A stretch of DNA of 64,000 nt from assembly GCF_017356035.1 (NCBI RefSeq), contig NZ_JAFIQX010000003.1:310001-374000 (forward strand). The letters run 5' to 3'. Position 1 is the first letter of the stretch, and the number at the start of each line of letters is the position of its first letter. Shown here piece after piece: positions 10,659 to 63,055 of the stretch. Source of the stretch: Longitalea luteola (lineage in GTDB: Bacteria > Bacteroidota > Bacteroidia > Chitinophagales > Chitinophagaceae). The notes under the pieces are model-generated. The model had not been told where the DNA came from and did no database searches. It worked only from the letters and a program-made list of their open reading frames with translations. The position numbers and the translations under genes were made by a program.

Positions 10659-10677
10659 ATTTTTACAACAGACAGGC

Positions 10678-47597: not shown

Positions 47598-47674
47598 GCG
47601 TTGTGCAAGCGGCGCTGATGTAGTAAAAATAGAAGCGACAAACCCTCGAGTTGTGGCCGGTGCACAACTGAACA

Positions 47675-47707
47675 TTAAAAAACCCTCCGTTTGCAGCGTG
47701 AGGGTTT
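47675..47707 (-). terminator. Terminator of the YkuK-like gene
   Basis: An 8-bp stem (47680-47687 with 47700-47707) directly after the TAG at 47708; on the minus strand it is followed by six T (47682-47677, partly shared with the stem). It separates the gene from the convergent engB. Confidence 0.75.
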
Positions 47708-48184
47708 CTAGTTTACTACTTTATTGGCACAGCTGCTGCTGGCGAAGGCTTCAGGTTTGGCTTTAAAGGCAAAGCCCATTCCCAATATGTAACCCATGGC
47801 TTCCTTCAGGGCATCGTTGCTTTTGAAGTGCGGATTGGTGTTAATGTCCGCATGAACTTCCATGTCTACATTGTACAGGTTGAACAGGTGACAAAGGTCA
47901 TAAGCTATTTCAATGCTCTTGGCCACCTCTACCAGCATCCTTTCTTTGATGCTGTATTGTTTCCTGGTTTTTTCATTGTGAATGAACATAAATCCTCCAT
48001 GTCCTTCACGTAGAAAGACAATAACCGTGGCAAATTCGGTTTCTGCGCCCTTTACCTGTGAATCGGTACCGATACAAACTTTAAGGTGATACCCTTTTTC
48101 TGTTTCGCGTTTGATAGCAAGTTCAACGGCATCGACAATGGGCAGGTCTATCGGGTCGCCATTAAATTTTCTCCATAACATCAT
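47708..48184 (-). CDS. YkuK-like ribonuclease H-fold protein (DUF458)
   Basis: A 158-residue cytoplasmic protein of the DUF458/YkuK group, with a predicted RNase H-like fold. VCIGTDSQVKGAETEFATVIVFLREG carries the first acidic residue of such a site; DMEVHADINTNPHFKSNDALKEA and GYILGMGFAFKAKPEAFASS are the conserved C-terminal parts. The molecular role is not known to me. Its start is either the ATG at 48184 or the next codon, also ATG. A perfect 17-bp hairpin lies only 3 bp upstream, which leaves almost no room for a free ribosome-binding site. Confidence 0.85.
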   Translation of the reverse strand: MMLWRKFNGDPIDLPIVDAVELAIKRETEKGYHLKVCIGTDSQVKGAETEFATVIVFLREGHGGFMFIHNEKTRKQYSIKERMLVEVAKSIEIAYDLCHLFNLYNVDMEVHADINTNPHFKSNDALKEAMGYILGMGFAFKAKPEAFASSSCANKVVN

Positions 48185-48187
48185 AAT

Positions 48188-48228
48188 GAAAAACGGGTTT
48201 TTCGAATTTACCGAAAAACCCGTTTTTC
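48188..48228 (-). terminator. 17-bp perfect hairpin after the zincin gene
   Basis: A perfect 17-bp inverted repeat (48188-48204 and 48212-48228) with a 7-nt loop, made of CGAAAAACCCGTTTTTC and its complement. It follows the stop of the minus-strand metalloprotease gene (48246) and ends 3 bp before the start of the next gene. It is likely a terminator, though its T-tract lies within the stem. Confidence 0.75.
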
Positions 48229-48245
48229 ACCAAATCATATGATTA

Positions 48246-49832
48246 TTATTGTTTTATTAATTTCCAGGTAGCAGTCTCTGCTTCGCCTTGAATTCTAAGC
48301 AGAACCATGCCTTTTTGTGCGTTTGTTATATCAATGTTATTTGTTCCGGAAAAGAGTTTGCCACGTTGTAACAGGCGGCCCGTTCCATCAAGAACCTGGT
48401 AGTTGCTTTCATTATTGGAATTAACAACTATTGCATTAGTAACCATGGTATTCATGATCCTGGCAATGGCCTTGTCGTCGTTTTTGTCGCGCAGCGTAAT
48501 TACGTTCGAATAGTATGATCTTTCATCCGCAGCAGTGATAACCCGTATACGATAAAAGGGCGCATTATCCGTTAATGGCTTCCACGAGAAGGTCTTTGTG
48601 CCGGCGCTCAGCTGGGCAAGGGCTTCATAACGCACTCCATCTTTTGAGTTCTGAATTTCAATATGTTTAACGGCTTCATCGGCTTCATACGTCCAGCTGA
48701 GGTTATGCGTTCCTGCACTCGTTTTGCCCGACAATGCCAACCGGTGAATGGGTAATACACTGATGGGCGAGGCGCTGATGGAATAATAACCGAGGCTTTC
48801 ATTTTTTACCAGGTGTGCATTGGCTGTGCCTTCCACCACCAGGTAATAAGTGCCACTGTTAAGGTTACTGTCGAGGCTGGCATTTACCAAAGCGGCCGGG
48901 TTGTACTGGCCAATGGTATCGGCTTTATCATTCAGCAGACTGACCTTGATATCGAGGTTGGCGCCCGAGTTGTTCGAACCTACGTTCTGGGGCACTGCAC
49001 TCAGGTGTACATAAGTTGGGTTGGAGATCGTGAATTTGAAAACATCTTTATCAGTTCCCGAGTTTATCAAGCCGGTAGTGGTAAAACCGGTATTGGTAAA
49101 TCCTACTGAGGTTGCTGTCATATGGTTGTTGCCAATATCATCGGTACGGTAACCAAAATTGTTCACGGGGCCTGAAATGATGGCCATATCATCCTGGTAG
49201 TAATTACAACCGTATGTATTGGTGCCATAGTGCCAGGTAGTAATGTTCCTGTAATAGCCTACACCCATGATAGGCGCCCAGCTGGTCTCTCCACTGCCGG
49301 TGCCGGGATTGTATTCGGTTTTCTGACACGCGGTTGTGTAGGCGCTCTGGTGTTGCAGGCCAAGGGTATGGCCGGCTTCATGTGAAGCAGCTTCTGCTAC
49401 ATTTTTGGTATTGTTTCCCAGTAAACTGCTGAATACAAAACAAGGCGTATTGTCGCCCCAGGTAAAGGAGCCCACCATAGCTACACCGCCTGCGCTGCCA
49501 TACCATTGGTAGGTAGGTGTAATGATCACACGCATGCGTTGCTTTAAAGGGGCAGCAGCATACACGGTTGAGTCGGTGGTAATGTTAACATTAAAAATGC
49601 GGTAATCTTCAGCAACCCGGTTAAAGATCTCGGTCATGCTGGTTGTAGTAAAGCCCGAAGGTTGGGCGTTGATAGGACCGCCCCAGTTCCAGGAGGTGCC
49701 GGTTACGTATTGTCCGTCAAAGTCCAGGTAAATAGTGGCCCTGGCCGATGGATAACTGTTCAGGATTGGAACCTGTGCTTGCAAGCTGGACGCAACTGCT
49801 AGTCCAAACAGTACGGTAAAAATGGTTTTCAT
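48246..49832 (-). CDS. Secreted zinc metalloprotease with type IX sorting domain
   Basis: A 528-residue secreted peptidase of the metzincin type. The signal peptide (FGLAVASSLQAQV) is followed by YLDFDGQYVTGTSWN and the zinc site HEAGHTLGLQH (HExxHxxGxxH) near residue 149, with the Met-turn probably in APIMGVGYY. A beta-sandwich (about 235-345), an Ig/Fn3-like domain (about 355-440) and a C-terminal sorting domain (NESNYQVLDGTGRLLQRG to WKLIKQ) complete it. It is expected to be exported by the type IX system and to act outside the cell. The small secreted protein gene 76 bp upstream may be its partner. Confidence 0.87.
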   Translation of the reverse strand: MKTIFTVLFGLAVASSLQAQVPILNSYPSARATIYLDFDGQYVTGTSWNWGGPINAQPSGFTTTSMTEIFNRVAEDYRIFNVNITTDSTVYAAAPLKQRMRVIITPTYQWYGSAGGVAMVGSFTWGDNTPCFVFSSLLGNNTKNVAEAASHEAGHTLGLQHQSAYTTACQKTEYNPGTGSGETSWAPIMGVGYYRNITTWHYGTNTYGCNYYQDDMAIISGPVNNFGYRTDDIGNNHMTATSVGFTNTGFTTTGLINSGTDKDVFKFTISNPTYVHLSAVPQNVGSNNSGANLDIKVSLLNDKADTIGQYNPAALVNASLDSNLNSGTYYLVVEGTANAHLVKNESLGYYSISASPISVLPIHRLALSGKTSAGTHNLSWTYEADEAVKHIEIQNSKDGVRYEALAQLSAGTKTFSWKPLTDNAPFYRIRVITAADERSYYSNVITLRDKNDDKAIARIMNTMVTNAIVVNSNNESNYQVLDGTGRLLQRGKLFSGTNNIDITNAQKGMVLLRIQGEAETATWKLIKQ

Positions 49833-49908
49833 TGGATCAGATGCGGATTTGGAGGTTAAACTAAATAGTGCTGAAAGGTTTCTGTAGGTTATATGCGATC
49901 AACAATGG

Positions 49909-50367
49909 TTATTCAACCATAAAATGGGCTTTGGGCTTCTTTATCCAGTAATACCGGTTGTTTTCTTCTGTTAGGACCAGTACTTCATCTGACTTCGGGT
50001 TAATAATGCGGCCTACCAGTTTTTGCGTATTGTCGGCCTCGGTGATAACTGATACCGTGCAAAAAGCGCCGGGCATCGTGATAGAACGAATATTCATGCT
50101 TTCGACGCCTGCTGCCGATCGCACTCTTTCAACCAGCTCTCCGTCAAATTCAAAATTGCCGAGCGCCAGGTTTACTCTTTCAGAAACGCGGGAAGAAGTA
50201 AGTTTTTTTAATGCCGGAAGATTACATTCCAGTTTCAGCGGGAGCTGCGTTAGCGATGTAGCCTTGTTTAAAACAGGCTTTTGGGTGATGGGTTGTTGTT
50301 GGGCCGAAATTGTCTGGTATGCGAATATGCATGCCACTAAGAGCCCCACAGCATGTAGGTTTTTCAT
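49909..50367 (-). CDS. Small secreted protein, unrecognised
   Basis: A 152-residue protein with a signal peptide (LLVACIFAYQTISAQ). The mature part of about 130 residues starts with a Gln/Pro-rich segment, then a compact mixed alpha/beta region (LALGNFEFDGELVERV, FCTVSVITEADNTQKLVGRI, VLVLTEENNRYYWIKKP). There is no sorting domain and only one Cys pair. I know no family. It stands just before the zincin gene on the same strand with a 76-bp gap, so it could be an inhibitor, chaperone or propeptide-like partner; that is inference from position only. Confidence 0.6.
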   Translation of the reverse strand: MKNLHAVGLLVACIFAYQTISAQQQPITQKPVLNKATSLTQLPLKLECNLPALKKLTSSRVSERVNLALGNFEFDGELVERVRSAAGVESMNIRSITMPGAFCTVSVITEADNTQKLVGRIINPKSDEVLVLTEENNRYYWIKKPKAHFMVE

Positions 50368-50567
50368 TTGTACGGGTTTTAAATGTACGGATCTGGATTA
50401 CGTTGGTATGGGTCTTAGGGTGTATTAAATCTACGTGCCTTTCTACGTGCCTTTCGATCTGATACAAATGTAGAACGCAAATGATATTCGGTTATTTTAC
50501 AGGAGGGTAAGAATCAAAGTTATGAGTGTTAAATATTGATCCTACTAGGGGTATTTACTATCGCTAT

Positions 50568-50939
50568 TTAGTACTGACCCGTGCTTAACAACACTAAAGT
50601 GCAGGCTTCCAATGGCTGAATGCCGTTGTTTTTTGCAAGATCATACAGTTCAGCGTTTTCTGCCCCTGGATTAAATATAATACGTTTTGGCTGAAGGGAT
50701 AGTATATAATCGTAGTATTCTTTCTGATGAAGGGGGTTGAGGTACAGGGTAACTGTATCAACCGTTTCAAGGGGCTTTTTCTCGGTGGTTATATCCACAT
50801 CCAGCACCCGCCCCTGCTTGCGGCCAATGGCGGCTACCGGATGCTGATGCCTGCGTAAACTATTAATAGCCAGAAAACTATACCGGTTCGGATTTTCCGA
50901 AGCGCCTAGTACCAGCGTTTTTTTATTGCCTTTTTCCAT
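50568..50939 (-). CDS. CoA-binding Rossmann protein (YccU-like)
   Basis: Small cytoplasmic protein of the CoA-binding domain (PF13380/YccU) group, with the Rossmann start KKTLVLGASENPNRYSFLAI and IIFNPGAENAEL. Relatives bind CoA, but the metabolic role is unknown. It has 123 residues from the ATG at 50939 (MEKGNKKT); 13 further codons are open upstream but do not match the family. Single gene. Confidence 0.82.
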   Translation of the reverse strand: MEKGNKKTLVLGASENPNRYSFLAINSLRRHQHPVAAIGRKQGRVLDVDITTEKKPLETVDTVTLYLNPLHQKEYYDYILSLQPKRIIFNPGAENAELYDLAKNNGIQPLEACTLVLLSTGQY

Positions 50940-51024
50940 AATGCTATAAAACAATCTGTTTACTGGAATGGTTGTCATTCAAATCTATAATATTTATCGG
51001 GTAAACAAAACGGCTGGTAAAGTG

Positions 51025-52149
51025 TTAACACGACACTCTATTACTTCCAAACACATGATACTTACTCCGGGGTAATGTATGAATGATATCATTTAGCGCG
51101 TGCTCCAGGGCGTTATATTTGAACGTAAAGCCTGATCGCAGCATTCTGGCCGGATATACCCATCTGCTCTTTAAGATCAGTTCGGTTTCTGTACCAATGA
51201 GGGCGGCGCCCGCTTCCAGCATCCAGGCAAAGGCTGGTAAACCGATGGTATGACCTGTTATGCGACGCAGCGTTTTCATAAAGTGGGCATTGGTCACTGC
51301 ATTCGGCGAACCGGCGATGTATATACCCTCCATATCATTGTGTTCATAACACCATTCAACCATCCTGCACAGGTCTTCTATGTGTATCCAGCTATACATT
51401 TGCGTGCCATCGCCCTGGTAGCCACCCAGCCGGGCTTTTAACAGGTTGCAATAAGGTATCATTACCCCGCCCTGTCCGAGAGTGATGGCGGTGCGGAGCG
51501 CTATTTTCCGGGTGAAAGGCGTGCGTTGTTCAAAGAAGGCCTGTTCCCAGTGTTTGCACACCTGAACTGAAAAATCCGTGTCCAGTTCTTTATAGCGACT
51601 GCTATGCCGGCCTTCCCGAAACCGTGTTTTGATTTTTTTGTATTGATAGCGTAGCCGGTCGAAAAAGGAATAAGGCATATTGTCGGCTTTGGCGTCGCTG
51701 ATAACACCTGTGAATTCATCATTGGGTTTGTCGGTCGTATGGCGGTAAATAGTGGCTGAAGAGGAATTGATCCAAAGCCGGGGCGGAACGGTACATTGAC
51801 GTATCGCTTCTCCAAGCGCCCTGGTCGACAAAGTGCGGCTGTTGATGATCTGCTGTTTATTTCTTTCGGTATAACGGCAATTCACCGATTTGCCGGCCAG
51901 GTTGATCACAATGTCTGCACCGTCGATATCCTGCAACCAGTGCTTCTCAACATGCTCTCCATCCCATCGCCAATACGTGATGTTGTATCCATCGGCTGCT
52001 TTCACCAGGGGATGTTTATAATTGTTATTTTGACTGCTGACCGCCTGACGGCTCAGTATTATTACATGGTTGTCATTTCCGAAATACCGGGCCATTGCCT
52101 GGCCAATAAAACCGGTTCCACCGGCAATGACAATTTTTTTGTGTTTCAT
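51025..52149 (-). CDS. TIGR01777 family NAD(P)-dependent epimerase
   Basis: Extended short-chain dehydrogenase of the TIGR01777/SDR39U1 group, substrate unknown. The N-terminal nucleotide-binding loop is VIAGGTGFIGQAMARYF, followed by VINLAGKSVNCRYTERNK and WINSSSATIYRHT (serine of the catalytic set). The C-terminal DUF1731 part is WMLEAGAALIGTETELILKSRWVYP. From the ATG at 52149 it has 374 residues, about 70 more than usual, due mainly to an inserted basic stretch (DRLRYQYKKIKTRFREGRHS). The frame is open 24 codons further up without family similarity. Confidence 0.87.
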   Translation of the reverse strand: MKHKKIVIAGGTGFIGQAMARYFGNDNHVIILSRQAVSSQNNNYKHPLVKAADGYNITYWRWDGEHVEKHWLQDIDGADIVINLAGKSVNCRYTERNKQQIINSRTLSTRALGEAIRQCTVPPRLWINSSSATIYRHTTDKPNDEFTGVISDAKADNMPYSFFDRLRYQYKKIKTRFREGRHSSRYKELDTDFSVQVCKHWEQAFFEQRTPFTRKIALRTAITLGQGGVMIPYCNLLKARLGGYQGDGTQMYSWIHIEDLCRMVEWCYEHNDMEGIYIAGSPNAVTNAHFMKTLRRITGHTIGLPAFAWMLEAGAALIGTETELILKSRWVYPARMLRSGFTFKYNALEHALNDIIHTLPRSKYHVFGSNRVSC

Positions 52150-52300
52150 AACAGGGGAATTAAGGTGGAAAGCACATCGATTAGGAAAGGGTAGAAACAG
52201 GCGGGTAAATAAACAGATCACATCTGTCCGGTTAACGATCCGGCCATCCTAACGGCGTGTTCATAGTTTTCATATTTTCAGAAATAAATGAAATGTAAAT

Positions 52301-52325
52301 GTATAATAAAAGCCGGCGAACCGGC
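52301..52325 (-). terminator. Terminator between gbsR-like and epimerase genes
   Basis: Stem GCCGG/CCGGC (52312-52316 with 52321-52325) with a TTCG loop on the minus strand, followed by TTTTATTAT. It is short but GC-rich, with a stable tetraloop. It separates the regulator gene from the epimerase gene. Confidence 0.55.
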
Positions 52326-52331
52326 GTTATT

Positions 52332-52387
52332 AAGTTTATAGTTCAAAGTTCATAGTTCTCAGTTAACACTTTCAGGTTCGAAGTGTA
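52332..52387. repeat. Heptanucleotide repeat
   Basis: Five clear 7-bp units from 52332 to 52366 (AAGTTTA, TAGTTCA, AAGTTCA, TAGTTCT, CAGTTAA) and three weaker ones to 52387. They are the same type and orientation as the array at 46733. The repeat fills the start of the gap behind the regulator gene. Confidence 0.75.
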
Positions 52388-52441
52388 GGGCCCAGGTTTC
52401 TCACAGTTCTTAACTAAACTGCATATTTGATGTTTACAGCG

Positions 52442-52948
52442 TTACCGGAAGATCTTCATCAGGTTGCCCAGGAACCAGTTCTCATCAGCTTTGACCAGTC
52501 CATCGAGCATTTTATCGGCCTGTAAGCCAAAACGCCGGATGCTGCTAACGGTTTCGGTGAACTGTTTAATGTGTTTGTCTTTTTTATCGCCCTCTACATC
52601 TTCCAACTGGTCGAGCAGGCGTAACATAGGATCCAGCTCTCTTTTCTTGCGCTCTTTCACGATTTGCGTGGCTACCTTCCAGATATCTTTTTCGGCAGAA
52701 AAGAACTCTTTGCGTTCTCCGGGGATCAAAATGCGGAATACCAATCCCCAATCGACCAGGTCACGGATATTCATATTTACATTGCCACGGCTTATGTTCA
52801 GCTGTTCCATGATATCATCCTGGCTTAATGGATCGGGACTGATCATCAGCAAGGCATGAATTTGCGCCATGGTGCGGTTAATGCCCCAATGGGATCCAAA
52901 TGCCCCCCAGGAGGCTATGAATTGGTGTTGCGCTTCTTCCAGTTTCAT
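52442..52948 (-). CDS. GbsR/MarR family transcriptional regulator
   Basis: Winged-helix regulator of 168 residues, GbsR type. The N-terminal WGAFGSHWGINRTMAQIHALL and DDIMEQLNISRGNVNMNIRDLVDWGLV form the DNA-binding domain, and the C-terminal half is a helical dimer/ligand region. Members respond to small molecules such as choline or to envelope cues. It is encoded directly downstream of the polyketide/prenyltransferase operon in the same direction (66-bp gap), with an AT-rich palindrome between them, so it may control that operon and itself. Confidence 0.88.
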   Translation of the reverse strand: MKLEEAQHQFIASWGAFGSHWGINRTMAQIHALLMISPDPLSQDDIMEQLNISRGNVNMNIRDLVDWGLVFRILIPGERKEFFSAEKDIWKVATQIVKERKKRELDPMLRLLDQLEDVEGDKKDKHIKQFTETVSSIRRFGLQADKMLDGLVKADENWFLGNLMKIFR

Positions 52949-52992
52949 ATTTTACCCTTCTTCCCAAAATTAAGCCCTATTTCTGAAGTTTC

Positions 52993-53015
52993 AAAAATTA
53001 ATGAAATTAATTTTT
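52993..53015. promoter_or_regulatory. AT-rich palindrome upstream of the GbsR-like gene
   Basis: A perfect 10-bp inverted repeat AAAAATTAAT/ATTAATTTTT with a 3-nt centre, located 45 bp before the regulator start and touching the stop of the DUF5723 gene. MarR-type proteins bind palindromes of about this size, so it could be an operator. It could also be a weak terminator. Confidence 0.4.
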
Positions 53016-54525
53016 AGCGGGGCGGACAATTTAATCGCTGGCCCAACCGGTTCTTCTTATGCTTGCTGCCCACTTTCGGACACCTGTATCTTTTATCGGT
53101 ACGCTCATCGGCACTGTTTCCGGGCCTTATAACAAGGGCCAGGTAAGCACCGCCGTTTTGGGTTTTGTTTTTTGAGAACACCGTGGCCCAGTTATGAACA
53201 CCCAGTAACAATGGTCCCAGTTTAACCGCTCCGCCGATCCACAATTTTTCTTTGGTATTGAAATGTACCGGCATATAAAAGCCCAGCCGCCTGGTTTCCC
53301 AGCGGGGTGTAACGGTTAACAGGTTCAATTCGGTAAGACGATGCTGGCTGCCGCTTAAAGAGGAAAGGTTCAACGAGGCATTCCCATTTATATACCAGGC
53401 GCCGGTAATAAAATGATCAACATTCAATACGAGCCGGGTCGGATTCACTACATGGAATTTACCGCCTGGTTGCTGTACCGTGCCCGCAACACCCTGCACA
53501 CGCTCATTGAACTCATCGAAACTGCTAACGTCGGCGAATCGTACATCGATCACTGTATCTGTGATATTATCCTGGAAGCCGCTGAGAATACGGCTGTTGC
53601 GGCCATACCGGAACTGATTGAATCCGATGTCCAGTATTGACAGGCCGATCTTCCAGTCATAATCGTAATAAGTGTCTTCGTCAAAAACAGCTGATACCTG
53701 CCCGGGTTTGATGATGTATTCAGCGCCCAGGTCAAATGAAACGCCTGCCCTGGTATTTCTTAAAAAATCCTTCAGGTTCTGCCTGGTATTTTTTTCATCC
53801 TGCCAGGTATCATAATTATTGGAGTAGGCGTATTCAACAAATGCATCTTCGAGGGTATACGCAAACGAATTACCGTGGATGGTTTGCGCGGCTTTTCCGT
53901 TCAATACGTTAACGTAGGCGGCGGAGATACCGCGGCTGACTTTAGCGGTAATGCCGGCATTCAGGCGGGCGTCTGAACGGTCCCAGATCGTTTGTGCCCA
54001 GGTAACAAAGAACTCAGCCCAGCTGCTGTGAACCATATCGCCATACAGGGTGCGTGCATAATTGCCCAGATCGAAAAAGTCGCGGGTAGAACCCAATGTA
54101 TCAATATAATTTACCCGACCCGTACTTGCGTGGGCATAACCGCGCAGGTTAACGCCAAAGCCAATCGCCTGCTTTCGGTTCAGGGCTATGCGGGCATTCA
54201 ACAGGTTTACATTAAAATCAGTATAGGCATACCGCCTGAAATCACCCTCCTCGATGCTATATTCAGAATTGCGGGGATTGCTGAGGTAGGAATAATTGCG
54301 GATAATAACACTGTTGGTGGCATTTTTTTCCTGTATGGAAAATATATCGATATCCCACTTGTAAGGTGTATTTACAATGGAGGCCGGGTTATTACCAATA
54401 CCCAGACTACCTGCATAGTTGCTACCCAGGATGGCATAATAATTCTGCGAATGACCATACGTGTAAACCAGGAGCAGTACTGTTACAGGCAATAGACGCG
54501 TGCACCATTTAAAAGGGTTTTCCAT
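53014..54525 (-). CDS. DUF5723 family outer-membrane beta-barrel protein
   Basis: A 503-residue secreted protein with a signal peptide (VTVLLLVYTYGHSQ), then GSNYAGSLGIGNNPASIVNTP, the typical start of DUF5723 proteins, and many amphipathic beta strands of an outer-membrane barrel related to OmpP1/FadL-like or PorV-like proteins. The last 30 residues are very basic with two cysteines (RYRCPKVGSKHKKNRLGQRL). Its start overlaps the end of the FAD oxidoreductase gene by 17 bp, so it is the last member of the polyketide/prenyl operon and may move the product or a precursor across the outer membrane. This role is inference. Confidence 0.75.
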   Translation of the reverse strand: MENPFKWCTRLLPVTVLLLVYTYGHSQNYYAILGSNYAGSLGIGNNPASIVNTPYKWDIDIFSIQEKNATNSVIIRNYSYLSNPRNSEYSIEEGDFRRYAYTDFNVNLLNARIALNRKQAIGFGVNLRGYAHASTGRVNYIDTLGSTRDFFDLGNYARTLYGDMVHSSWAEFFVTWAQTIWDRSDARLNAGITAKVSRGISAAYVNVLNGKAAQTIHGNSFAYTLEDAFVEYAYSNNYDTWQDEKNTRQNLKDFLRNTRAGVSFDLGAEYIIKPGQVSAVFDEDTYYDYDWKIGLSILDIGFNQFRYGRNSRILSGFQDNITDTVIDVRFADVSSFDEFNERVQGVAGTVQQPGGKFHVVNPTRLVLNVDHFITGAWYINGNASLNLSSLSGSQHRLTELNLLTVTPRWETRRLGFYMPVHFNTKEKLWIGGAVKLGPLLLGVHNWATVFSKNKTQNGGAYLALVIRPGNSADERTDKRYRCPKVGSKHKKNRLGQRLNCPPR

Positions 54526-55648
54526 GTGTTTGCTGTATTAGGAACGCTACAAACTTTGGAAAGGGCTTTACCAGTTTTATGAGTACGTTGGATAAAATGG
54601 AGCTCCCGAAAAACGTTTGCAATAACCGTCCGACCTGCAGGCGACGGCCAAATTGTTTTTCCCATTGCTGGGTATACTGAATTTCCATTTCATAGCGATT
54701 AATTCTTCCCTGCAGGAACGAATCGATCTCTTCAAAGGCGAGTTTGCTGCTATGCAGGGCCATGCTCATCCCATTGCCACATAAAGGCGCAATAAGGCCG
54801 GCCGTATCGCCGATCATCAGGACGTGGTTTTCAATCTGTGTTTTTTTGTTGAAAGAGATCCGGGAAATGGTCAATGGCTCTTCATAGAGCATTTCAGCAT
54901 TGGAAAATATCTTTTCCAGGAAAGGATTTTTCATAAGAATATCTCTTTCCATACTGCTAATATCATTCCTGCATTTGCGCAGGTTAGCGGCCGTTGTTAA
55001 GTAGCAGAGGCAATATTTGTTTTCCTCAATTTGGGAAATTCCACAATAGCCATTTTCAAAATTGTGGAGGGCGATCAGATCGGCGGGATGATGAATGCGG
55101 ATGTGGTATTTTACGGCTATGTAATGGTTGAGTTTGTTGGGCTTTACTTTCGTGAACTGCCTTTTCCATTTAACATCCAGGTTGCCTCTTTTGCCATAAG
55201 CGCCGGCGACTACCATGGCTTCTGTATCGCCTTTGTTGGTAAATACCAGGAAGGCATTGTTCCGGTATACCACATTCATCACTTTGGTTTCTTCCATTAC
55301 GGTAACTCCTTCCTGCCGGGCAATATTGGCCAGCAGGCTGTCAATAGTATAGCGACTGATACCAAAGCCACCCAGCGGCAGGGTAGTCTCAATGTAATTG
55401 CCATCGGGTGTGGTAATGAGCAGGCGGTTAATAATGGGCAATTGCATATCGCTGAGCGGCAGGCCAAGGTCCTGCAGAAAGTTCCAGCTTTCGAGGCTTA
55501 TATATTCACCGCATACTTTATGGAAGGGATATTTTTCTCTTTCCAGCAATACGGTCTTATAACCTGCACGCGCGCTTTGAATGGCCAGCGCAAGTCCGGC
55601 CAGTCCTCCACCTACAATGGCAATATCATATTTGGGTTGAAGGATCAA
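54509..55648 (-). CDS. FAD-dependent oxidoreductase (geranylgeranyl-reductase-like)
   Basis: Flavoprotein of the group-A monooxygenase/geranylgeranyl reductase superfamily, 379 residues. It has the dinucleotide-binding loop IAIVGGGLAGLALAI at about 8-22, KVCGEYISLES, which aligns with the substrate-loop start of this family, and the second FAD motif MIGDTAGLIAPLCGNGMSMAL. In a cluster with a type III polyketide synthase, a methyltransferase and a UbiA enzyme, it likely hydroxylates the aromatic product or reduces a prenyl chain. The start codon is a TTG at 55648; the frame continues upward with no ATG, and the residues after the TTG match the family beginning. Confidence 0.87.
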   Translation of the reverse strand: MILQPKYDIAIVGGGLAGLALAIQSARAGYKTVLLEREKYPFHKVCGEYISLESWNFLQDLGLPLSDMQLPIINRLLITTPDGNYIETTLPLGGFGISRYTIDSLLANIARQEGVTVMEETKVMNVVYRNNAFLVFTNKGDTEAMVVAGAYGKRGNLDVKWKRQFTKVKPNKLNHYIAVKYHIRIHHPADLIALHNFENGYCGISQIEENKYCLCYLTTAANLRKCRNDISSMERDILMKNPFLEKIFSNAEMLYEEPLTISRISFNKKTQIENHVLMIGDTAGLIAPLCGNGMSMALHSSKLAFEEIDSFLQGRINRYEMEIQYTQQWEKQFGRRLQVGRLLQTFFGSSILSNVLIKLVKPFPKFVAFLIQQTHGKPF

Positions 55649-55676
55649 TATTGTAAATTCTTTATTCGCTTTTTCC

Positions 55677-56414
55677 CTAAGCGTTATTTTCTGGTCCTGT
55701 ATTCCTGCATACGATCAGCCAGCGAAAGGCCCATTTCCATTCAATGGAGAAGTCGCTGATACCGGCGATATTAAAAAATTGCAACCATTCGTCTTTGGTG
55801 AATCCACGGGCTACAGATAACGGAGCATCATGTTTGACCAGGTAACTGTTCGAAAACAATGCAGTGAGCGCTTTGATGGAATAATAAGCCAGCTTGTGCC
55901 GGTGAAGATCATTTATAAAAAAGCCAAGCCGGGCATTGGCTTTCATCCATTGTAACTGCTTTACCATTTCGCGGTCAGAGAAGTGATGGCAGAACAGGGA
56001 AGAGAAAATAATATCCGGCTGCGATTCCAGTTGAACGGTCTTATAATCGGCATTGATCAATCGGGTGTTATCGAGCGATCGTTTGGCGGCAACATCGATG
56101 CAATGCGGGTTAATGTCGATGCCAATAAAGGCTGCCGGAATATTCTTTTTGTTACACCATTTTTGAATAGCCGCCAGGTTGTCGCCGCCGCCACAGCCTA
56201 TTTCACAGATCGTGGTCCCCTTCGCAAAAGCGTTGGCGCGTGTAGCCGGGTCCTGAGCATCCATCAGGGCCTGCACACCGCTGAGTGTGATGGTATGACC
56301 GCCCAGCCAGGTATTGATAAAATTGAGCTCATGCATATTCCGTTGGATCTCTTCAAATGGAATATCCGGACGGTCGAGCAATTCGGGCTGGTATGATCGG
56401 TGGCGAAAATTCAC
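55677..56414 (-). CDS. Class I SAM-dependent methyltransferase
   Basis: Methyltransferase of 245 residues with motif I ICEIGCGGGDNL near 70, motif II FIGIDINPHCID and FSSLFCHHFSDREMVKQL in the middle. The C-terminal part (LSVARGFTKDEWLQFF) is typical of small-molecule O- or C-methyltransferases in polyketide clusters. The start is a GTG at 56414: an in-frame TAA lies 9 bases upstream and no ATG is available. It lies 84 bp after the polyketide synthase gene and 28 bp before the oxidoreductase gene, and probably methylates the polyketide product. Confidence 0.88.
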   Translation of the reverse strand: MNFRHRSYQPELLDRPDIPFEEIQRNMHELNFINTWLGGHTITLSGVQALMDAQDPATRANAFAKGTTICEIGCGGGDNLAAIQKWCNKKNIPAAFIGIDINPHCIDVAAKRSLDNTRLINADYKTVQLESQPDIIFSSLFCHHFSDREMVKQLQWMKANARLGFFINDLHRHKLAYYSIKALTALFSNSYLVKHDAPLSVARGFTKDEWLQFFNIAGISDFSIEWKWAFRWLIVCRNTGPENNA

Positions 56415-56498
56415 GATTGTAATTTATGATTTTCTGATCGACCCGCGAAACAGGTACAACGTCTATAAGGACGCAGCATACCGGCTAATAACAAAATA

Positions 56499-57599
56499 TT
56501 ATGAATTTGTTGATGCCACAAAGGTTTCCATGGTGAGGCCCGGGCCGAAGGCTGCTCCGAAAATATGTTCCTTCCTGTTATGGTTTTGTAAGAGGGCAGG
56601 TGCCATTTTTTTCAGCACGAAAAGTATAGTAGGAGACGACATGTTGCCGTAATGCTGTAGTATGTCGTACGAAGCCTGCAGTTCATGGGATTGAAACGAC
56701 AGCGTTTTGTGAACGGCTTCAAGAATTTTTCTACCGCCGGGATGTATACACCAGTGCGTAATGTCCTGTTGGGTTAAGCCGGTGCGGGCAAGTGCCCTGG
56801 TTGTGAAATGGTTGAAATCTTCTTCCAGCAGATCGGGAATATAACTGCTCAGGGTCATTAGAAAACCGCTGGAAGAGATTTCCCAGGCCATGTCTTTTTT
56901 GCCTTTCGGAATAACTTCCGAATAGAACCCATCGAGCCGGATACCTTTGGCCGGATGGCTGTCAGCCGTAACAACTGCTGCAGCGCTGCCATCGGCAAAT
57001 AAAAGGCTCGATGCAATATTGTCGATCGTTGGCTCACGTTGAAAGTGTAATGTGCACAATTCCGTGCATACGATCAATACTTTTGCCTGTTGATCGGCCC
57101 TGCAAATGGCGTCGGCCGTTTTCAATGCATGTATGCCTGCATAACAGCCCATAAAATTGATGGAGGAACGCACGGTGTGCCGGGGCAGGTCGAGCAGTTC
57201 CATTACATGCAGGTCGAGGCCCGGTGCGCTCATGCCGGTACAACTGACAGTGATCAGGTGGGTAATATCTGCTTCGGCCAATTTACCGTCGAGACAATCA
57301 CGAATGGCATTCACAGACAGCTGAGGGGCGTATTTGTGATACCAGATCATCCGTTGTTCCAGGGAAGGAAAAGGCTCCAGGTTTTCCGTATGCGGATAGA
57401 ACTTCCATTCAGGAACGGGGCGGCTGTAATCGGGAATGACGGAATAACGGGTATCAATATGGCTTTGGTGATATAAAAAGCGCAGGCGGCGCCTGTCGGC
57501 TTCCGTAAAAGAGTAGATCAGCTGCATGAATTGCAGAATATCCTGTTGATTGTGCCGGAAAGATGGCACAGCAGTTCCGATGGCAATAATTTTACTCAA
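56499..57599 (-). CDS. Type III polyketide synthase
   Basis: Chalcone-synthase-like enzyme, a homodimer that extends an acyl-CoA starter with malonyl-CoA and cyclises the product (alkylresorcinol, alkylpyrone or similar). The catalytic triad is visible: Cys152 in NFMGCYAG, His286 in CIHPGGRK and Asn319 in YGNMSSP. TVSCTGMSAPGLD and FGAAFGPGLTME are further family signatures, and the 366-residue length is typical. The start is a TTG at 57599 that overlaps the stop of the UbiA gene (8 bp shared); an in-frame TAA upstream rules out a longer product, so translation is coupled to UbiA. Confidence 0.94.
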   Translation of the reverse strand: MSKIIAIGTAVPSFRHNQQDILQFMQLIYSFTEADRRRLRFLYHQSHIDTRYSVIPDYSRPVPEWKFYPHTENLEPFPSLEQRMIWYHKYAPQLSVNAIRDCLDGKLAEADITHLITVSCTGMSAPGLDLHVMELLDLPRHTVRSSINFMGCYAGIHALKTADAICRADQQAKVLIVCTELCTLHFQREPTIDNIASSLLFADGSAAAVVTADSHPAKGIRLDGFYSEVIPKGKKDMAWEISSSGFLMTLSSYIPDLLEEDFNHFTTRALARTGLTQQDITHWCIHPGGRKILEAVHKTLSFQSHELQASYDILQHYGNMSSPTILFVLKKMAPALLQNHNRKEHIFGAAFGPGLTMETFVASTNS

Positions 57600-58455
57600 A
57601 TCCCCTCCAGATTAATAAGGTAAGGAAAGCAAGATTGGTGCAGATAGACGCCAGTATATTCATGCGCATGGTATTGGAAAAATCGGCCCTTTTTTCATCT
57701 TTCCAAACCAAACCGGCCCAACTGAAAAAATATACGAGTATGGGCAACATCATAGTTGCTAATGCCAGGAACTTTTTCTGTTGGTCATGGCTAATGAACC
57801 ACCAGGCCAGTATGCTCATGGCTATTGTATAGATCAATGCGGTGAAAACGAAAGTACCACGGTAACCCAGTAATGCGCTGATCGTAATAACGCCGTCTTT
57901 TCTGTCGGCCTCGTGCTGGTAGATCTGCGTGAGCGGATAAAATCCGCCGATGAGTAAACTGGCTGCTGCCATGCCGGCTGCTGGCACAGTCAGCGTTTTA
58001 TCATTACTGCTTCCATGATATACCATAAAAAATGTTACGGCGCCCTGAAATATGATGACGGTCAGATAGCCGGCAACCGGATATTTTTTCAACCGGATGC
58101 CCCGGTAGCTGTATGCTCTTGATGCGGCTATATAAGCTGCTATGCAAATTGTAAACCAGTAGCTGATGAACAGGCTGAGGCCGATGGCCACCAGATCCAT
58201 TATAACACTTATATAGAATAACTGCCGGGTAGGCGGCAGCGGAGATCTGATGCCGCCAATGCTGGTTTCATCGCGATCCATATAGGAATTATACCCGTTG
58301 CTGGAAGGATACACCAGCAAATGGAGGATGAAAAAGATCAGCAGGGCATGGCCTGGATGAATAACGGGTACCTGACTTACAGCGAATAAGTATACAGGTA
58401 ACAGAAAGAAGGAAAAGTGAAACCGGAGCAGTTGTATGGTAGATGGTGCAAGCAT
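57592..58455 (-). CDS. UbiA family prenyltransferase
   Basis: Integral membrane prenyltransferase of 287 residues with eight or nine helices. The first Asp-rich motif is NSYMDRDETS near residue 57, and a second Asp-rich site HEADRKDG lies near 180; both bind Mg and the prenyl diphosphate. It attaches a prenyl chain to an aromatic acceptor, which in this operon would be the product of the type III polyketide synthase translated right behind it. It is first in the operon; its ATG lies 2 bp after the hairpin that ends the flotillin gene. Confidence 0.87.
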   Translation of the reverse strand: MLAPSTIQLLRFHFSFFLLPVYLFAVSQVPVIHPGHALLIFFILHLLVYPSSNGYNSYMDRDETSIGGIRSPLPPTRQLFYISVIMDLVAIGLSLFISYWFTICIAAYIAASRAYSYRGIRLKKYPVAGYLTVIIFQGAVTFFMVYHGSSNDKTLTVPAAGMAAASLLIGGFYPLTQIYQHEADRKDGVITISALLGYRGTFVFTALIYTIAMSILAWWFISHDQQKKFLALATMMLPILVYFFSWAGLVWKDEKRADFSNTMRMNILASICTNLAFLTLLIWRGFE

Positions 58456-58456
58456 A

Positions 58457-58486
58457 AAACAGTCCCGGCTACAGCCAGGACTGTTT
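58457..58486 (-). terminator. Terminator of the flotillin gene
   Basis: A 13-bp stem with one G-T pair (58457-58469 with 58474-58486), followed on the minus strand by a short T-run that runs into the ATG of the UbiA gene (58455). As this terminator abuts the next start codon, transcription of the UbiA operon may depend on readthrough or on a promoter within the hairpin. Confidence 0.7.
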
Positions 58487-58525
58487 AAAGATATGAATAA
58501 GATGGTTACATAAACCAGCTGGCCG

Positions 58526-60112
58526 TTACTCTTTCACGATAACCTGTGTTGCGGTATCGGCTATTTCCTTGTGGTTGTGCTCCTCTTTTTTTGAATGTCC
58601 CAGGTAAGAAGGCAGATCCATACCAGCCATGTTAAATATGTCTTTTAACGGGGGCACGGCTTTGTACATGCCCGATATAAAGTTAGCGGTGGAGTTTTTG
58701 TCTGAACCGTTCTGGCCGTTTTCCCACACCGTAACTTTATCGATCTTGATATTTTTGATAGCATCGGTTTGCATCCGCACCAGTTCGGGCAGTTTATCAG
58801 AGATGAGCAACAGAACCGCATCTTTCGGATTGTTACCGGCGGCCTTCACTATTCTATCAAGACCCTCGGCTTGTTTGGTCAGGATCTCATACATACCGCG
58901 GGCTTCCGCTTCCAGTTTGGCATAAATAGCATCGGCTTCACCCTTTGCTTTCTCCCTGATCTTTTCGGCTTCGGCCTGCGCTTCTATGATCGCTTTTTGT
59001 TTTTGTATTTCTGCCGTTACCACAATGTTGGCGTTTTGCGAAGCACGTTCTTTTTCGGCGCGCGCATCCTCGGCTTTTTGTTCTGCGAGGTAAGCTTCTT
59101 CCAACGCTTTAGCGGCCTGTACCTTTTCGGCGGCAATAGCGCGTTTCAGGGCTTCCGCTTCACGTTCGCGGCGGGAAGCTTCTGAATCGGCGATCTGGAT
59201 CCTGGCAAGGTTTTCTCCCTGTACCGCAATAGAGTTTGCTTCTGCCGATTTAATACGGGTATCCCTTTCCGCTTCTACTTTACCGATCTGTTCATCTCTT
59301 TTGGCTGCTGCGATCAATATCTCTTTGTCTTTTTCAGCAACGGCGATCTTTGAGTCGCGGTCACGCTGCGTTTCGGCAATCTGTACGTCGCGCTCTTTCT
59401 GGGTTTGCTTCAGGCTGATATCGCGCTCTCTTTCTGCAATGGCTTTACCAATTTCACCCACTTTATCCTGTTCTGCCACGCTTTTCTTTGCTTCGTTGAT
59501 CGCTTTCGCAGAAGCTTCCTTGCCCAGCGCTTCAATGTAACCGCTTTCATCTTTGATGTCGGTTACGTTCACGTTGATCATTTTCAAACCGATCTTGTTC
59601 AGCTCAGCCTCCTCGTTAGAAGCAATGTTGGCAAGGAATTTATCGCGGTTGCTGTTGATCTCTTCAATATCCATCATGGCTACTACCAGCCGCATCTGGC
59701 CCAGGATGATATCTTTCGCCAGGTCATGTATTTGACCCTGCTGCAAACCCAGCAGGCGTTCAGCGGCGTTTTGCATAACACCCTGTTCGGTTGAAATACC
59801 AACGGTGAACCGGGAAGGTACATCAACGCGGATGTTTTGCTTGCTCAACGCATTGGTGAGGTTTACTTCGATAGAAATAGGCGTAAGGTCAAGGAATGAG
59901 TAGTCCTGGATGATGGGCCAGATGAACGCGGCGCCACCGTGAATACATTTGGCGCTCAGGTTGCCTTCTGAACCATCTTTTGACCGGCCTACTTTACCAT
60001 ATACAACGAGCACCCGGTCGCTGGGGCATCGTTTGTATCGTCTGAACATAGAAATGATAAGGATGAACAGGAACAATACACTTCCTGCCACCGCAATGAG
60101 GATGTAATCCAT
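58526..60112 (-). CDS. Flotillin family protein (SPFH domain)
   Basis: Membrane-scaffold protein of 528 residues, FloT/YqiK type. It has an N-terminal membrane helix (about 3-22), the SPFH domain (about 28-200), then a long alanine/glutamate-rich coiled coil (about 200-400; many EAE and KAKGEADAIYAKLEAEARG segments) and a C-terminal helical part with GLDRIVKAAGNNPKDAVLLLI. Flotillins gather in membrane microdomains rich in polyisoprenoid lipids. It follows the NfeD-like gene with a 37-bp gap, the usual pairing. Proximity to a prenyl/polyketide lipid operon is notable, though a terminator separates them. Confidence 0.93.
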   Translation of the reverse strand: MDYILIAVAGSVLFLFILIISMFRRYKRCPSDRVLVVYGKVGRSKDGSEGNLSAKCIHGGAAFIWPIIQDYSFLDLTPISIEVNLTNALSKQNIRVDVPSRFTVGISTEQGVMQNAAERLLGLQQGQIHDLAKDIILGQMRLVVAMMDIEEINSNRDKFLANIASNEEAELNKIGLKMINVNVTDIKDESGYIEALGKEASAKAINEAKKSVAEQDKVGEIGKAIAERERDISLKQTQKERDVQIAETQRDRDSKIAVAEKDKEILIAAAKRDEQIGKVEAERDTRIKSAEANSIAVQGENLARIQIADSEASRREREAEALKRAIAAEKVQAAKALEEAYLAEQKAEDARAEKERASQNANIVVTAEIQKQKAIIEAQAEAEKIREKAKGEADAIYAKLEAEARGMYEILTKQAEGLDRIVKAAGNNPKDAVLLLISDKLPELVRMQTDAIKNIKIDKVTVWENGQNGSDKNSTANFISGMYKAVPPLKDIFNMAGMDLPSYLGHSKKEEHNHKEIADTATQVIVKE

Positions 60113-60149
60113 GCGTTAAAAAATTAAGGGGTTGATATGTTGGTTTATT

Positions 60150-60749
60150 CTAAAAAAGACTATTGTCTGCAATAGTTACCAGTAAGATGCGGTCGTTGAT
60201 TATATTTTTTACCCTGATGAGTTTGCCGGTGGCAATTTCTATTTCATCATCAGTCATGGCGGGTAATTCATGCAGGGTTCCCTGTACTTTAATATGTACT
60301 TTGCCGGTACCGCCGCGTTTGGCCGGAATAAACAGGTAGGTCGTTCCGGTTTTGTTGATCGCATGCTGAATTTGCATGGCCCCATTGTGACGGAGCCGGC
60401 TCATGTTCTTTAAGATGAGCATCATCATTACTACTATGATGGTGCCCGCAGCCAGGCCCAACAGGATCGTTGCCAGCTTGCTCATGCCGCTGTAATGAGT
60501 GGCAATACCCACCCAGCCGAACATCGTGAAAAAGGCGATCATATTCTTGACGGTAAAGAACTGGTAGTCGATACCATCATCGTGGTCAATGGCTGTGTCT
60601 GCATCGCCGCCCGTATGGCCGGCGTCGCCGCCGGAAAGCGACAATACGCTTTGCAGCAGGTAGAGCGAAGAAAACACAATGGCAATGCCCCAAAGGATCT
60701 TTTCAAAGTTCTCGAGGTGCTGCCACCAGTCAGTTATACTTAGTAACAT
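60150..60749 (-). CDS. NfeD-like membrane protein with OB-fold domain
   Basis: A 199-residue partner of the flotillin gene behind it. It has an N-terminal helix (about 16-38), an acidic Gly/Asp-rich loop (GGDAGHTGGDADTAIDHDDG), two or three more membrane helices (about 70-112) and a C-terminal OB-fold of about 75 residues (GKVHIKVQGTLHELPAMTDD, ATGKLIRVKNIINDRILLV). It matches the short NfeD form (NfeD1b/YuaF type) without the serine-protease domain. NfeD and flotillin work together in membrane domains. The heptanucleotide array begins 24 bp upstream of its start. Confidence 0.88.
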   Translation of the reverse strand: MLLSITDWWQHLENFEKILWGIAIVFSSLYLLQSVLSLSGGDAGHTGGDADTAIDHDDGIDYQFFTVKNMIAFFTMFGWVGIATHYSGMSKLATILLGLAAGTIIVVMMMLILKNMSRLRHNGAMQIQHAINKTGTTYLFIPAKRGGTGKVHIKVQGTLHELPAMTDDEIEIATGKLIRVKNIINDRILLVTIADNSLF

Positions 60750-60773
60750 AGTGATTTAGGGTTTTATAATACG

Positions 60774-60885
60774 CTGAACGCGGAACGCTGAACGCTGAAC
60801 GCTGAACGCCAAACGCTGAACGCGAAACGCTGAACGCCAAACGCTGAACGCGGAACGCTGAACGCGGAACGCGGAACGCTGAACG
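60774..60885. repeat. Heptanucleotide repeat, 16 units
   Basis: Sixteen consecutive 7-bp units of the type C[tgc][ga]AACG (CTGAACG nine times, CGGAACG four times, CCAAACG twice, CGAAACG once). It is the same repeat type as at 41579. It fills the upstream part of the flotillin operon. The 467-bp gap 60750-61216 also holds the facing array at 60944 and a short direct repeat (GCACCAGGC at about 61040 and 61085); no gene is visible in it. Confidence 0.93.
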
Positions 60886-60943
60886 CTATAGTCCGAAATT
60901 TGAACCTGCTGACTGCGGGCGACGGTTCGCTGATGCAGATACC

Positions 60944-60971
60944 GGCGTTAGGCATTCGGCGTTAAGCATTT
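60944..60971. repeat. Heptanucleotide repeat, facing arm
   Basis: Four 7-bp units (GGCGTTA, GGCATTC, GGCGTTA, AGCATTT), which read as TAACGCC-type units on the other strand. They thus face the array at 60774 in inverted orientation, 58 bp away. Confidence 0.7.
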
Positions 60972-61216
60972 TTTATATTGGTAGCGCAAATGATTCAAAC
61001 ATTACAGGCGCACCCTTAATATTTGTGATTTAGAGATTGCGGCACCAGGCTGCCGGCCTTACTTCGCCTAGGCTTCGCGAAGGCGCACCAGGCAGGTTTT
61101 GAAATTTATTTTAATGTCAGCGTTGCGGTAAATCCCGAAATCCCCAAATCGTAATTTAATGTGCTTGCTGTTTTATGCTGGTAGTTACTGCTCATTTATA
61201 TCCTAATTTGGTGGCC

Positions 61217-63055
61217 ATGAAAAGGTTGTTTATCATTTCAATATTATTGCTGGGATATTTTGCCGTTCCCGCACAAATAAGATCCTTCCGTTTTATTCAT
61301 ATCAGTGATACGCATATCGGTTCGCCCAATGGCTCGGCTGAGGAAGACCTGCGCCGTACGGTGCGCGATATTAATGAGCAGCCGGATGTGGCGTTCGTGA
61401 TCATCACCGGCGATATTACCGAACTGGGTACCGATGCGCAGCTGATGGTGGCCAAACAGATCCTGGACAGTTTAAAAGTGAAATATTATATCATCCCGGG
61501 TAATCACGATACGGGGTGGAGCGAAAGCGGAGGCGACCATTATACCAGCACCTTTGGTTACGATAAATTCCAATTTGATCATAATGGTATTCGCTTTATC
61601 GGATGCGCTTCAGGTCCCTATGTAAGAATGAGCGATGGACATATTCCCCGCAGCGCGATTGTGTGGCTGGATAGCCTGCTGGCTAAAACACCGAGGGACC
61701 AGCCTATCATTTTCTGTAATCATTATCCCATCGATAATGGTCTCGACAACTGGTACGAGATCACCGACCGCCTGAAACACTACAATACAAAACTTATTAT
61801 TTGCGGTCATGGTCATAATAACCATGCGCTGAATTTTGAAGGTATTCCCGGAGTAATGGGTCGTTCAAACCTGCGCGCCAAAGCGCCGGTTGGCGGTTAT
61901 AATTTTGTTGATGTGTATAATGATTCCGTAGTTTATACCGAACGCACGCCGGGTGTGGAAACCCTGCCTTCCTGGACAAAGGTCAGCTTCAAAAAAATGG
62001 ATACTTCACAACATTTTGAGCGGCCTTCCTATGCCATCAATGCACAATACCCTCAGGTAAAACCGAAATGGACATTTGCCGACGATGCTAACGTGATCTC
62101 AACCCCGGCTGTCGCCAACAAGCTTGTTGTTTTCGGCAATCAGAATGGCTTGGTAAGGGCGTTGTCGCTGAAAGACGGAAAAAAGAAATGGAGTTATAAT
62201 ACGAACGGTGCTATTTTTTCATCGCCTGCTGTTAAGGCCGGGAAGGTAGTGCTGGGCTCAGGTGATGGGCATGTGTACTGTTTGAACCTGGCGTCGGGAA
62301 AATTGATCTGGAAGGTGAAGACGGATGCTTCTGTGCTCGGTTCGCCCGTGATCGCGGGAGATACTGTTTTTATTGGTGGCAGCGATCATAGTTTCAGGGC
62401 ATTAAATCTGAAGAACGGCACTGCTTTCTGGACGTTCAACGGCTTGCAGGGACCTGTTGTAAGCACGCCATTGCTTTATGGCAATTCAGTGATCTTTGGC
62501 GCCTGGGATAAACATTTATATGCAGTGAATAGAACGAACGGACAACTGTCCTGGCAATGGAACCCTGGTTTTTCAGTGATCAATTTCTCACCCGCTGCCT
62601 GTATTCCGGTGGCGCATGACAGTGTGGTGTATGTGGTTTGTCCGAACCGAACCATATATGCCATTGATGCGGTAACAGGAAATACCTTGTGGAAGAATAG
62701 TGAGACGCGCGTGCGCGAGTCGATCGGGATCTCGGCAGACGGAAAATACGTATATGGAAAAACCATGCAGGATACCATAGTGGCATATGCTACGAGCCGT
62801 ACAGCGCAGCGGCCTGCCTGGGTGATGAATGCAGGATTTGGTTATGAGCACGTACCATCGATGCTGATTGAAAAAGACGGACAGGTATTTTTTGGTACGC
62901 GCAATGGAGTGGTGTATGCGATTGATCCTGCCACGCAAAAAACGAACTGGGCTTATAAGATCGATAACTCCATGGTGAACACCGTGCGGGTGCTGAATAA
63001 GAAGCAATTGATCGCTTCTACGATGGATGGAAAGGTTGTGTTGATTGCCCATTGA
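61217..63055 (+). CDS. Secreted metallophosphatase fused to PQQ-like beta-propeller
   Basis: A 612-residue secreted protein. A signal peptide (LFIISILLLGYFAVPAQ) precedes a calcineurin-like phosphoesterase domain (about 20-250) with all metal motifs: SDTHIG, GDITE, GNHD, NHYPID and GHGHNNH. The second half is a beta-propeller of PQQ-like repeats (recurring phrases LKDGKKKWSY, LASGKLIWKV, LKNGTAFWTF, GNTLWKNS), about seven blades. It probably acts in the periplasm on a phosphoester or nucleotide, with the propeller as a binding platform. The start is the ATG at 61217, which yields the signal peptide; 14 upstream codons are open but unlikely. It is convergent with the lipoprotein gene. Confidence 0.9.
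   Translation: MKRLFIISILLLGYFAVPAQIRSFRFIHISDTHIGSPNGSAEEDLRRTVRDINEQPDVAFVIITGDITELGTDAQLMVAKQILDSLKVKYYIIPGNHDTGWSESGGDHYTSTFGYDKFQFDHNGIRFIGCASGPYVRMSDGHIPRSAIVWLDSLLAKTPRDQPIIFCNHYPIDNGLDNWYEITDRLKHYNTKLIICGHGHNNHALNFEGIPGVMGRSNLRAKAPVGGYNFVDVYNDSVVYTERTPGVETLPSWTKVSFKKMDTSQHFERPSYAINAQYPQVKPKWTFADDANVISTPAVANKLVVFGNQNGLVRALSLKDGKKKWSYNTNGAIFSSPAVKAGKVVLGSGDGHVYCLNLASGKLIWKVKTDASVLGSPVIAGDTVFIGGSDHSFRALNLKNGTAFWTFNGLQGPVVSTPLLYGNSVIFGAWDKHLYAVNRTNGQLSWQWNPGFSVINFSPAACIPVAHDSVVYVVCPNRTIYAIDAVTGNTLWKNSETRVRESIGISADGKYVYGKTMQDTIVAYATSRTAQRPAWVMNAGFGYEHVPSMLIEKDGQVFFGTRNGVVYAIDPATQKTNWAYKIDNSMVNTVRVLNKKQLIASTMDGKVVLIAH

Follow-up and report, generated by a model that had tools for sequence, protein, structure and literature searches.

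Gene content of the locus

Five head-to-tail open reading frames (ORFs) lie on the minus strand at positions 53014-58455 of a 64,000-nucleotide stretch of the Longitalea luteola genome (contig NZ_JAFIQX010000003.1; this whole stretch is called the window below), according to the window's ORF list. The initial annotation had placed five ORFs there, all of which are present, and had named the first four as UbiA, type III polyketide synthase (PKS), methyltransferase (MT) and flavin adenine dinucleotide (FAD) enzyme. Pfam agrees for all four (UbiA, PF01040 at 65.7 bits; type III PKS, PF00195 and PF02797; class I MT; FAD enzyme), and because the gaps from UbiA to the fifth gene are -8, 84, 28 and -17 bases, the arrangement is operon-like (Table 1). 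These four genes form a cassette whose association is beyond chance and from which the fifth gene is excluded. The genome of the window (7.3 Mb) has one match to the window PKS and five UbiA-family matches, four of them above the Pfam cut-off; the closest named relatives by PKS, at 86-91% identity, are Longitalea arenae and Niastella species.

Table 1. Features of the cassette and its flanks in the window
Feature	Position	Strand	Basis or remark
UbiA-superfamily membrane protein, 287 aa; proposed prenyltransferase, first in cassette	57592..58455	-	PF01040, fold, motifs, co-occurrence with PKS
Type III PKS, 366 aa; proposed maker of alkylresorcinol core	56499..57599	-	PF00195/PF02797
Class I S-adenosylmethionine (SAM) MT, 245 aa; proposed to methylate the ring at C or O	55677..56414	-	PF13649
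FAD enzyme, 379 aa, of the PHBH / geranylgeranyl-reductase superfamily; proposed to hydroxylate the ring	54509..55648	-	TIGR02032, below cut-off
Fifth protein, 503 aa, family without match; 17-base overlap with FAD gene; judged outside the system	53014..54525	-	
MarR/GbsR-like regulator, flanking block, downstream	52442..52948	-	PF12802; promoter-like site 52994-52965
Flotillin-like Band 7 gene, upstream flank	58526..60112	-	PF01145
NfeD-like gene, upstream flank	60150..60749	-	Label is our own; convincing family match absent
TATCTTT box and 13-bp hairpin	58493-58487 (box), 58486-58457 (hairpin)	-	Hairpin ends 1 base before UbiA start codon

Conservation of the cassette and the link between UbiA and PKS

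Two sets of loci were compared. The first comprises 60 chosen PKS loci plus the window (20 kb each as a rule, three being shorter), and contains this UbiA in 44/61 loci, the MT in 54/61 and the FAD enzyme in 52/61. The second consists of the window and 78 named loci, inspected up to 6.5 kb from the PKS, many of them cut by contig ends (L125 and L156 were left out, their PKS ORF not having been obtained); here the counts are 67/79, 73/79 and 75/79. The order UbiA-PKS-MT-FAD on one strand occurs in 30 loci of the first set and 60 of the second. The initial annotation had proposed looking for a five-gene order in other genomes, with lack of conservation counting as a refutation; a four-gene order does recur, and the fifth gene (9/61 and 24/79 loci) is unlinked to it.

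A type III PKS match was found in 76 of the 147 sampled genomes of the host's family, 67 of these belonging to the window's PKS clade; the nine genomes with only a distant PKS (<=33% identity, a cut that we set) were placed among the remaining 80. UbiA is present in 65 of the 67 and in none of the 80 (Fisher P 5e-40), with one match per genome, and in 64 of the 65 it is found upstream of the PKS at a distance of <=300 bases (with the same strand in 61 and the opposite strand in three; the remaining one is on another contig). At the level of the phylum (395 genomes, 179 with PKS and 60 with UbiA) all 60 UbiA genomes have a PKS, and UbiA occurs in none of the 216 genomes that have no PKS; this UbiA subfamily was thus not found without a type III PKS in the genomes sampled. 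In a group of families that we picked (f1, f2, f3, f8, f9, f10 and f13; PKS E value of 1e-81 or better) every genome carries UbiA (26/26), and among the 19 genomes of that group outside f1 the UbiA and PKS genes are together in 13 and apart in six. Family f24 has a UbiA of 23-29% identity in 34 of its 45 PKS genomes; in the seven f24 loci fetched (L192-L198) this divergent UbiA is separated from the PKS and keeps the N, D, D and Q, D positions described below. The neighbors of UbiA in one of them, L193, are thioredoxin, aminotransferase and aldehyde dehydrogenase genes.

In the PKS phylogeny (65 rows, midpoint root) one starred group of 52 rows (97/94) takes in each of the 44 rows whose locus contains UbiA, and the UbiA label changes eight times on the tree, compared with 18.1 times in shuffles. 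The eight remaining rows of that group are L064, L066, Psychrobacter and five rows that were searched genome-wide, of which L061, L071, L075 and L078 have UbiA elsewhere in the genome and L058 is without it. Three rows outside the group also have UbiA elsewhere in the genome (L079, L080 and L082, family f24). In L082 a MatE-type transporter adjoins the PKS-MT-FAD genes (10207-11556). Another, distantly related type III PKS set (L088-L090, identity about 30%) has the order FAD-MT-PKS with UbiA absent from the locus, and its neighbors are of fatty-acid type: a short-chain dehydrogenase/reductase (L089, L090), a FabA-like protein (L088, L089), a ketosynthase (L090) and YceI (L088).

The three genes that follow UbiA also occur without it. 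On plasmids, PKS, MT and FAD genes are direct neighbors in Deinococcus, Roseomonas, Paludisphaera and Psychrobacter (in the last of which the PKS has the opposite strand), with no UbiA annotation within 6 kb of any of these four sets, and a search of plasmid records returned no match to this UbiA (chromosomes lay outside this search). Identities to the window are 34-41% for the PKS, 24-30% for the MT and 23-28% for the FAD enzyme; in Paludisphaera all three proteins are distant homologs (PKS 34%, MT 24% and FAD enzyme 23%; E values 9e-68, 1e-22 and 5e-12). In the Deinococcus radiodurans set (L172) a glycosyltransferase and a phospholipase D-like gene come next after PKS-MT-FAD, and the lipid of that organism may be glycosylated.

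The four proteins

The AlphaFold model of the UbiA-like protein is confident (predicted local distance difference test [pLDDT] score 95.7), and its best matches by fold in the PDB are the UbiA homologs 4tq4, 7bpu and 4od4 (for 4tq4, Foldseek E 1.4e-6, template modeling [TM] score 0.71). These UbiA homologs and DGGGP synthase of archaea share the fold of the window protein at 16-18% identity in the fold-match rows, and the Asp motifs are altered in the window protein. The second of the UbiA motifs is DxxxD. Neither this nor the other classical motif, NxxxDxxxD (PMC4044012), describes the window protein or the set of 44 sequences. The window protein instead has N56xxxD60xD62 and Q180xxxD184, and residues N56, D60, D62, Q177, Q180 and D184 are invariant in the 44 sequences, with H181 kept in 43. 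From the alignments this reads as an altered metal site in this UbiA subfamily.

In the PKS, residues C152, H286 and N319, which we take to be the catalytic triad, are each kept in at least 95% of the 61 sequences, and the best PDB sequence match is Steely1 (4.5e-44). The MT matches NF004851 at 1.1e-34, under that family's cut-off, and is homologous to the methyltransferases of other PKS sets. The model of the FAD enzyme (pLDDT 90.3) matches the folds of halogenases, hydroxylases and reductases alike. A halogenase was considered, prompted by the best PDB profile matches together with the Steely1 match (Steely1 being known in connection with DIF-1). Flavin-dependent halogenases are marked by the motif WxWxIP, which reads WVWQIP in the alignment rows of 5buk and PltA; this stretch is absent from the FAD enzyme, where residues 200-205 are GYCGIS, and the assignment was rejected.

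The fifth gene and the flanking block

The initial annotation had labeled the fifth protein a DUF5723 barrel and counted it in the operon of a possibly exported lipid; the name DUF5723 lacks support, and membership in the operon does not hold. Pfam gives no match for it up to E=10, its only NCBIfam match is at chance level (E=0.056), and five of its homologs have no Pfam match up to E=1 and none in NCBIfam. Among the family genomes it is present in 29/67 with a window-clade PKS and 26/80 others (P=0.23), so that its presence is independent of the PKS. Eleven fifth-gene loci away from the cassette were fetched, eight from genomes without PKS and three from genomes with it. Of the eight, two (L175, L178) have the row NfeD-like, Band7, fifth gene; four (L176, L177, L180, L183) keep only downstream neighbors (CoA [coenzyme A]-binding, some with MarR or Epi); and two (L179, L186) have neither the upstream nor the downstream flank. 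The MarR gene is downstream of the fifth gene in L176, L178 and L183. In the three PKS-bearing genomes (L181, L182, L184) the fifth gene is placed off the cassette and such flanks are absent. The window has UbiA-PKS-MT-FAD between Band7 and the fifth gene in this same flanking frame, and L032 has the cassette and the frame and lacks the fifth gene. We judge this gene to lie outside the system and infer that a block of older origin acquired or lost the cassette as one unit.

Upstream of UbiA, the TATCTTT box and the hairpin (Table 1) are both kept in nine Niastella and Longitalea leaders, and no such hairpin was found in the four leaders of other genera that were folded. The stem is paired in 89.7% of cells, and its covariation (0.295 versus 0.123) was reached in 0/500 shuffles (with L095 out of register); the controls are mixed, as the four double-sided pair changes were reached by 104/500 shuffles and the further pair types by 44/500. 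The exact stem occurs once elsewhere in the window's genome and not in G071. The hairpin may be a terminator of Band7 or a 5' leader element of the cassette. The Bacteroidota promoter pattern TTG-N16-21-TAnnTTTG, scanned on the minus strand over 47000-61500, occurs before the MarR gene and before the CoA-binding gene and not before UbiA; a looser TAnnTTT[AG] box before UbiA (31/111, against a background of 404/2075) was too weak to retain.

Relation to known systems

The nearest published parallel is agqABCD of Actinoplanes missouriensis, which, unlike the window, comes from an actinomycete. This gene set has been tied to alkyl-O-dihydrogeranyl-methoxyhydroquinones (PMC7692728, PMC3569393); as in the window, a type III PKS gene, agqA, stands alongside the others (PMC7692728). 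The alkylresorcinol is later prenylated and hydroxylated (PMC10896814), as we propose here, a membrane-bound prenyltransferase carrying out its O-prenylation (PMC4044012, citing the Actinoplanes paper). The window has the agq-type gene content (type III PKS, UbiA, methyltransferase and flavin enzyme), and its flavin family may differ. In a similar-looking region of Micromonospora (loseolamycin), UbiA and methyltransferase genes are followed in one row by a gene annotated as acyl-CoA dehydrogenase and by the type III PKS gene (PMC7587189). The flavin enzyme of the window belongs to another flavin family. By gene content and published descriptions, rather than by comparison of sequences, the window cassette most likely works like agq. 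The initial annotation, which knew of no described product for this combination in Bacteroidota, had missed this precedent, which has a product and lies outside Bacteroidota.

The window shares the adjacency of methyltransferase, oxidoreductase and type III PKS with hidABC (hierridins, cyanobacteria) and with a planctomycete operon; the order in those is mostly MT-oxidoreductase-PKS, whereas the window has PKS-MT-FAD, in agreement with the rarer cyanobacterial order hidC-hidA-hidB (PMC8086630). As described, these sets have no prenyltransferase, Raphidiopsis excepted (PMC8086630), in contrast to the dedicated UbiA of the window. Planctomycete PKSs yielded alkylresorcinols in a heterologous host, and co-expression of the planctomycete methyltransferase and oxidoreductase genes yielded one added methyl group (PMC10896814). 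The srsABC (Streptomyces griseus) and pkqABC operons combine PKS, methyltransferase and hydroxylase/oxidoreductase genes and lead to alkylquinones; as described, these three-gene operons are without a prenyltransferase, unlike the window (PMC9927152). The window MT differs from SrsB also in family. It is a class I SAM enzyme, whereas SrsB is an ICMT-type methyltransferase.

Within Bacteroidota, we found no demonstrated product for a type III PKS in the open literature, a search that left subscription papers mostly uncovered and so leaves absence unproven. Bacteroidota type III PKS clusters are listed without product (PMC10752948, PMC12565237). One genome survey counts type III PKS among the commonest clusters of Bacteroidetes and links them, in a table, to the synthesis of hypocrellin and kanamycin (PMC9100364), a link that is not convincing for this gene set.

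A probable route to a prenylated lipid of phenolic or quinone type

From the genes, their folds or families, their conservation and the tie between UbiA and PKS observed in the sampled genomes, we think it probable that the four genes of the cassette are a dedicated pathway to a membrane lipid of phenolic or quinone type that carries a prenyl group. Primed by a fatty acyl thioester, the PKS would add malonyl units and close a ring of the 5-alkylresorcinol type; the MT would methylate the ring on C or O; the FAD enzyme would hydroxylate it, giving a hydroquinone or quinone; and the UbiA enzyme would attach a prenyl group from a prenyl diphosphate. In this scheme we infer the substrates, the order of the steps, the ring type, the prenyl length, C- versus O-prenylation and the cellular role. 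We favor it because of the co-occurrence of UbiA with the PKS, the fold of the UbiA-like protein and the PKS-MT-FAD sets found elsewhere, and because of the planctomycete alkylresorcinol and methylation results, the agq precedent and a FAD enzyme that has no halogenase signature. The prenylated type III polyketide lipid of the initial annotation is thereby kept as the best-supported reading, with a UbiA link that goes beyond what was then known and with the fifth gene and export removed from it.

Several results weigh against this interpretation. In the UbiA-like protein, the expected place of the third Asp in NxxxDxxxD is residue 64, which is D in 4/44 sequences only, and the invariant Q180 is aligned with the Asp that opens the second motif in 4od4. 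Neither fold nor sequence tells a hydroxylase from a reductase in the case of the FAD enzyme, the FAD enzymes of other sets are distant (23-28% identity), and that of Deinococcus aligns by BLAST over 32 residues only, yet has a profile E value of 1e-36. For the PKS, a resorcinol and a pyrone product cannot be told apart from the available evidence, and no product of the cassette is known to us. As to distribution, two of the 67 family genomes with a window-clade PKS are without UbiA, f24 supplies 34 of the 60 UbiA genomes of the phylum, and the P values overstate independence because the sampled genomes share ancestry. In addition, 119 of the 179 PKS genomes of the phylum have no UbiA match, among them those of f36, whose PKS E values (to 1e-85) are as good as those of some UbiA carriers. 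The PKS therefore does not everywhere require UbiA; the odds of our claim are unchanged by these last results, because it concerns UbiA carriers.

Four other explanations were weighed. One is that the lipid would serve in respiration as an alternative quinone under limiting oxygen or menaquinone, in the manner of the polyketide quinones of mycobacteria and Streptomyces. Three-gene operons of PKS, methyltransferase and oxidoreductase are reported to lead to such quinones in M. smegmatis and a Streptomyces (PMC9927152); we consider this role unlikely, and it is not exclusive, being compatible with the prenylated-lipid pathway.

Just below it, and also unlikely in our judgment, stands the view that the UbiA-like protein is not a prenyltransferase and carries out some other membrane reaction on the polyketide lipid (cyclization, use of another donor, or transport), which would leave an unprenylated phenolic lipid. 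The loss of two classical acidic positions alongside conserved D62, Q180 and H181 is consistent with this, as are an NCBIfam score below every cut-off and a further fold match to the membrane phosphoribosyltransferase 8j8j (E 6e-4). The best fold matches are nevertheless homologs of UbiA prenyltransferases, N56, D60 and D184 are invariant, and there is a recorded case of a membrane-bound prenyltransferase that acts on a small polyketide (PMC4044012, citing the Actinoplanes paper).

It is improbable that the FAD enzyme acts on the prenyl chain, as a reductase of the geranylgeranyl kind, instead of hydroxylating the ring. Its best NCBIfam match is indeed the geranylgeranyl reductase superfamily (TIGR02032), at 94.8 bits against a cut-off of 158.8. 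Reductases are expected to have Trp and Pro in the stretch that corresponds to residues 200-205, and the enzyme has neither there. The product of agq carries a dihydrogeranyl group (PMC3569393), which fits prenyl reduction, whereas the FAD gene keeps company with PKS and MT on the four plasmids described above, where no UbiA is annotated nearby and which, like all plasmid records searched, have no match to this UbiA.

Finally, the version of the initial annotation, with five genes and a barrel protein as exporter of the lipid, is highly improbable: the fifth gene does follow the FAD gene directly with a 17-base overlap and does lie near the PKS in some loci, but its PKS-independent presence, the flanks that it keeps in PKS-less genomes and its separation from the cassette in three PKS-bearing ones led us to reject a barrel exporter, and the argument for export falls because this gene is outside the system.

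Implications

The prenylated-lipid pathway turns orphan type III PKS genes of Bacteroidota into a single testable prediction, namely a phenolic or quinone lipid that bears a prenyl group. Actinomycetes are known to have a comparable gene set, and what is unusual in the present version is its prenyltransferase. As a bolder and rather unlikely extension, Bacteroidota may have a UbiA subfamily with a metal-site signature of its own (NxxxDxD and QxxxD) that evolved for type III polyketides and makes an unrecognized quinone lipid with a prenyl group, which might serve as a second quinone in respiration or protection. If the pathway operates as proposed, UbiA chemistry would function without two of the standard Asp residues, and an undescribed membrane lipid would be present in a lineage in which 65 of the 147 sampled family genomes carry this UbiA.

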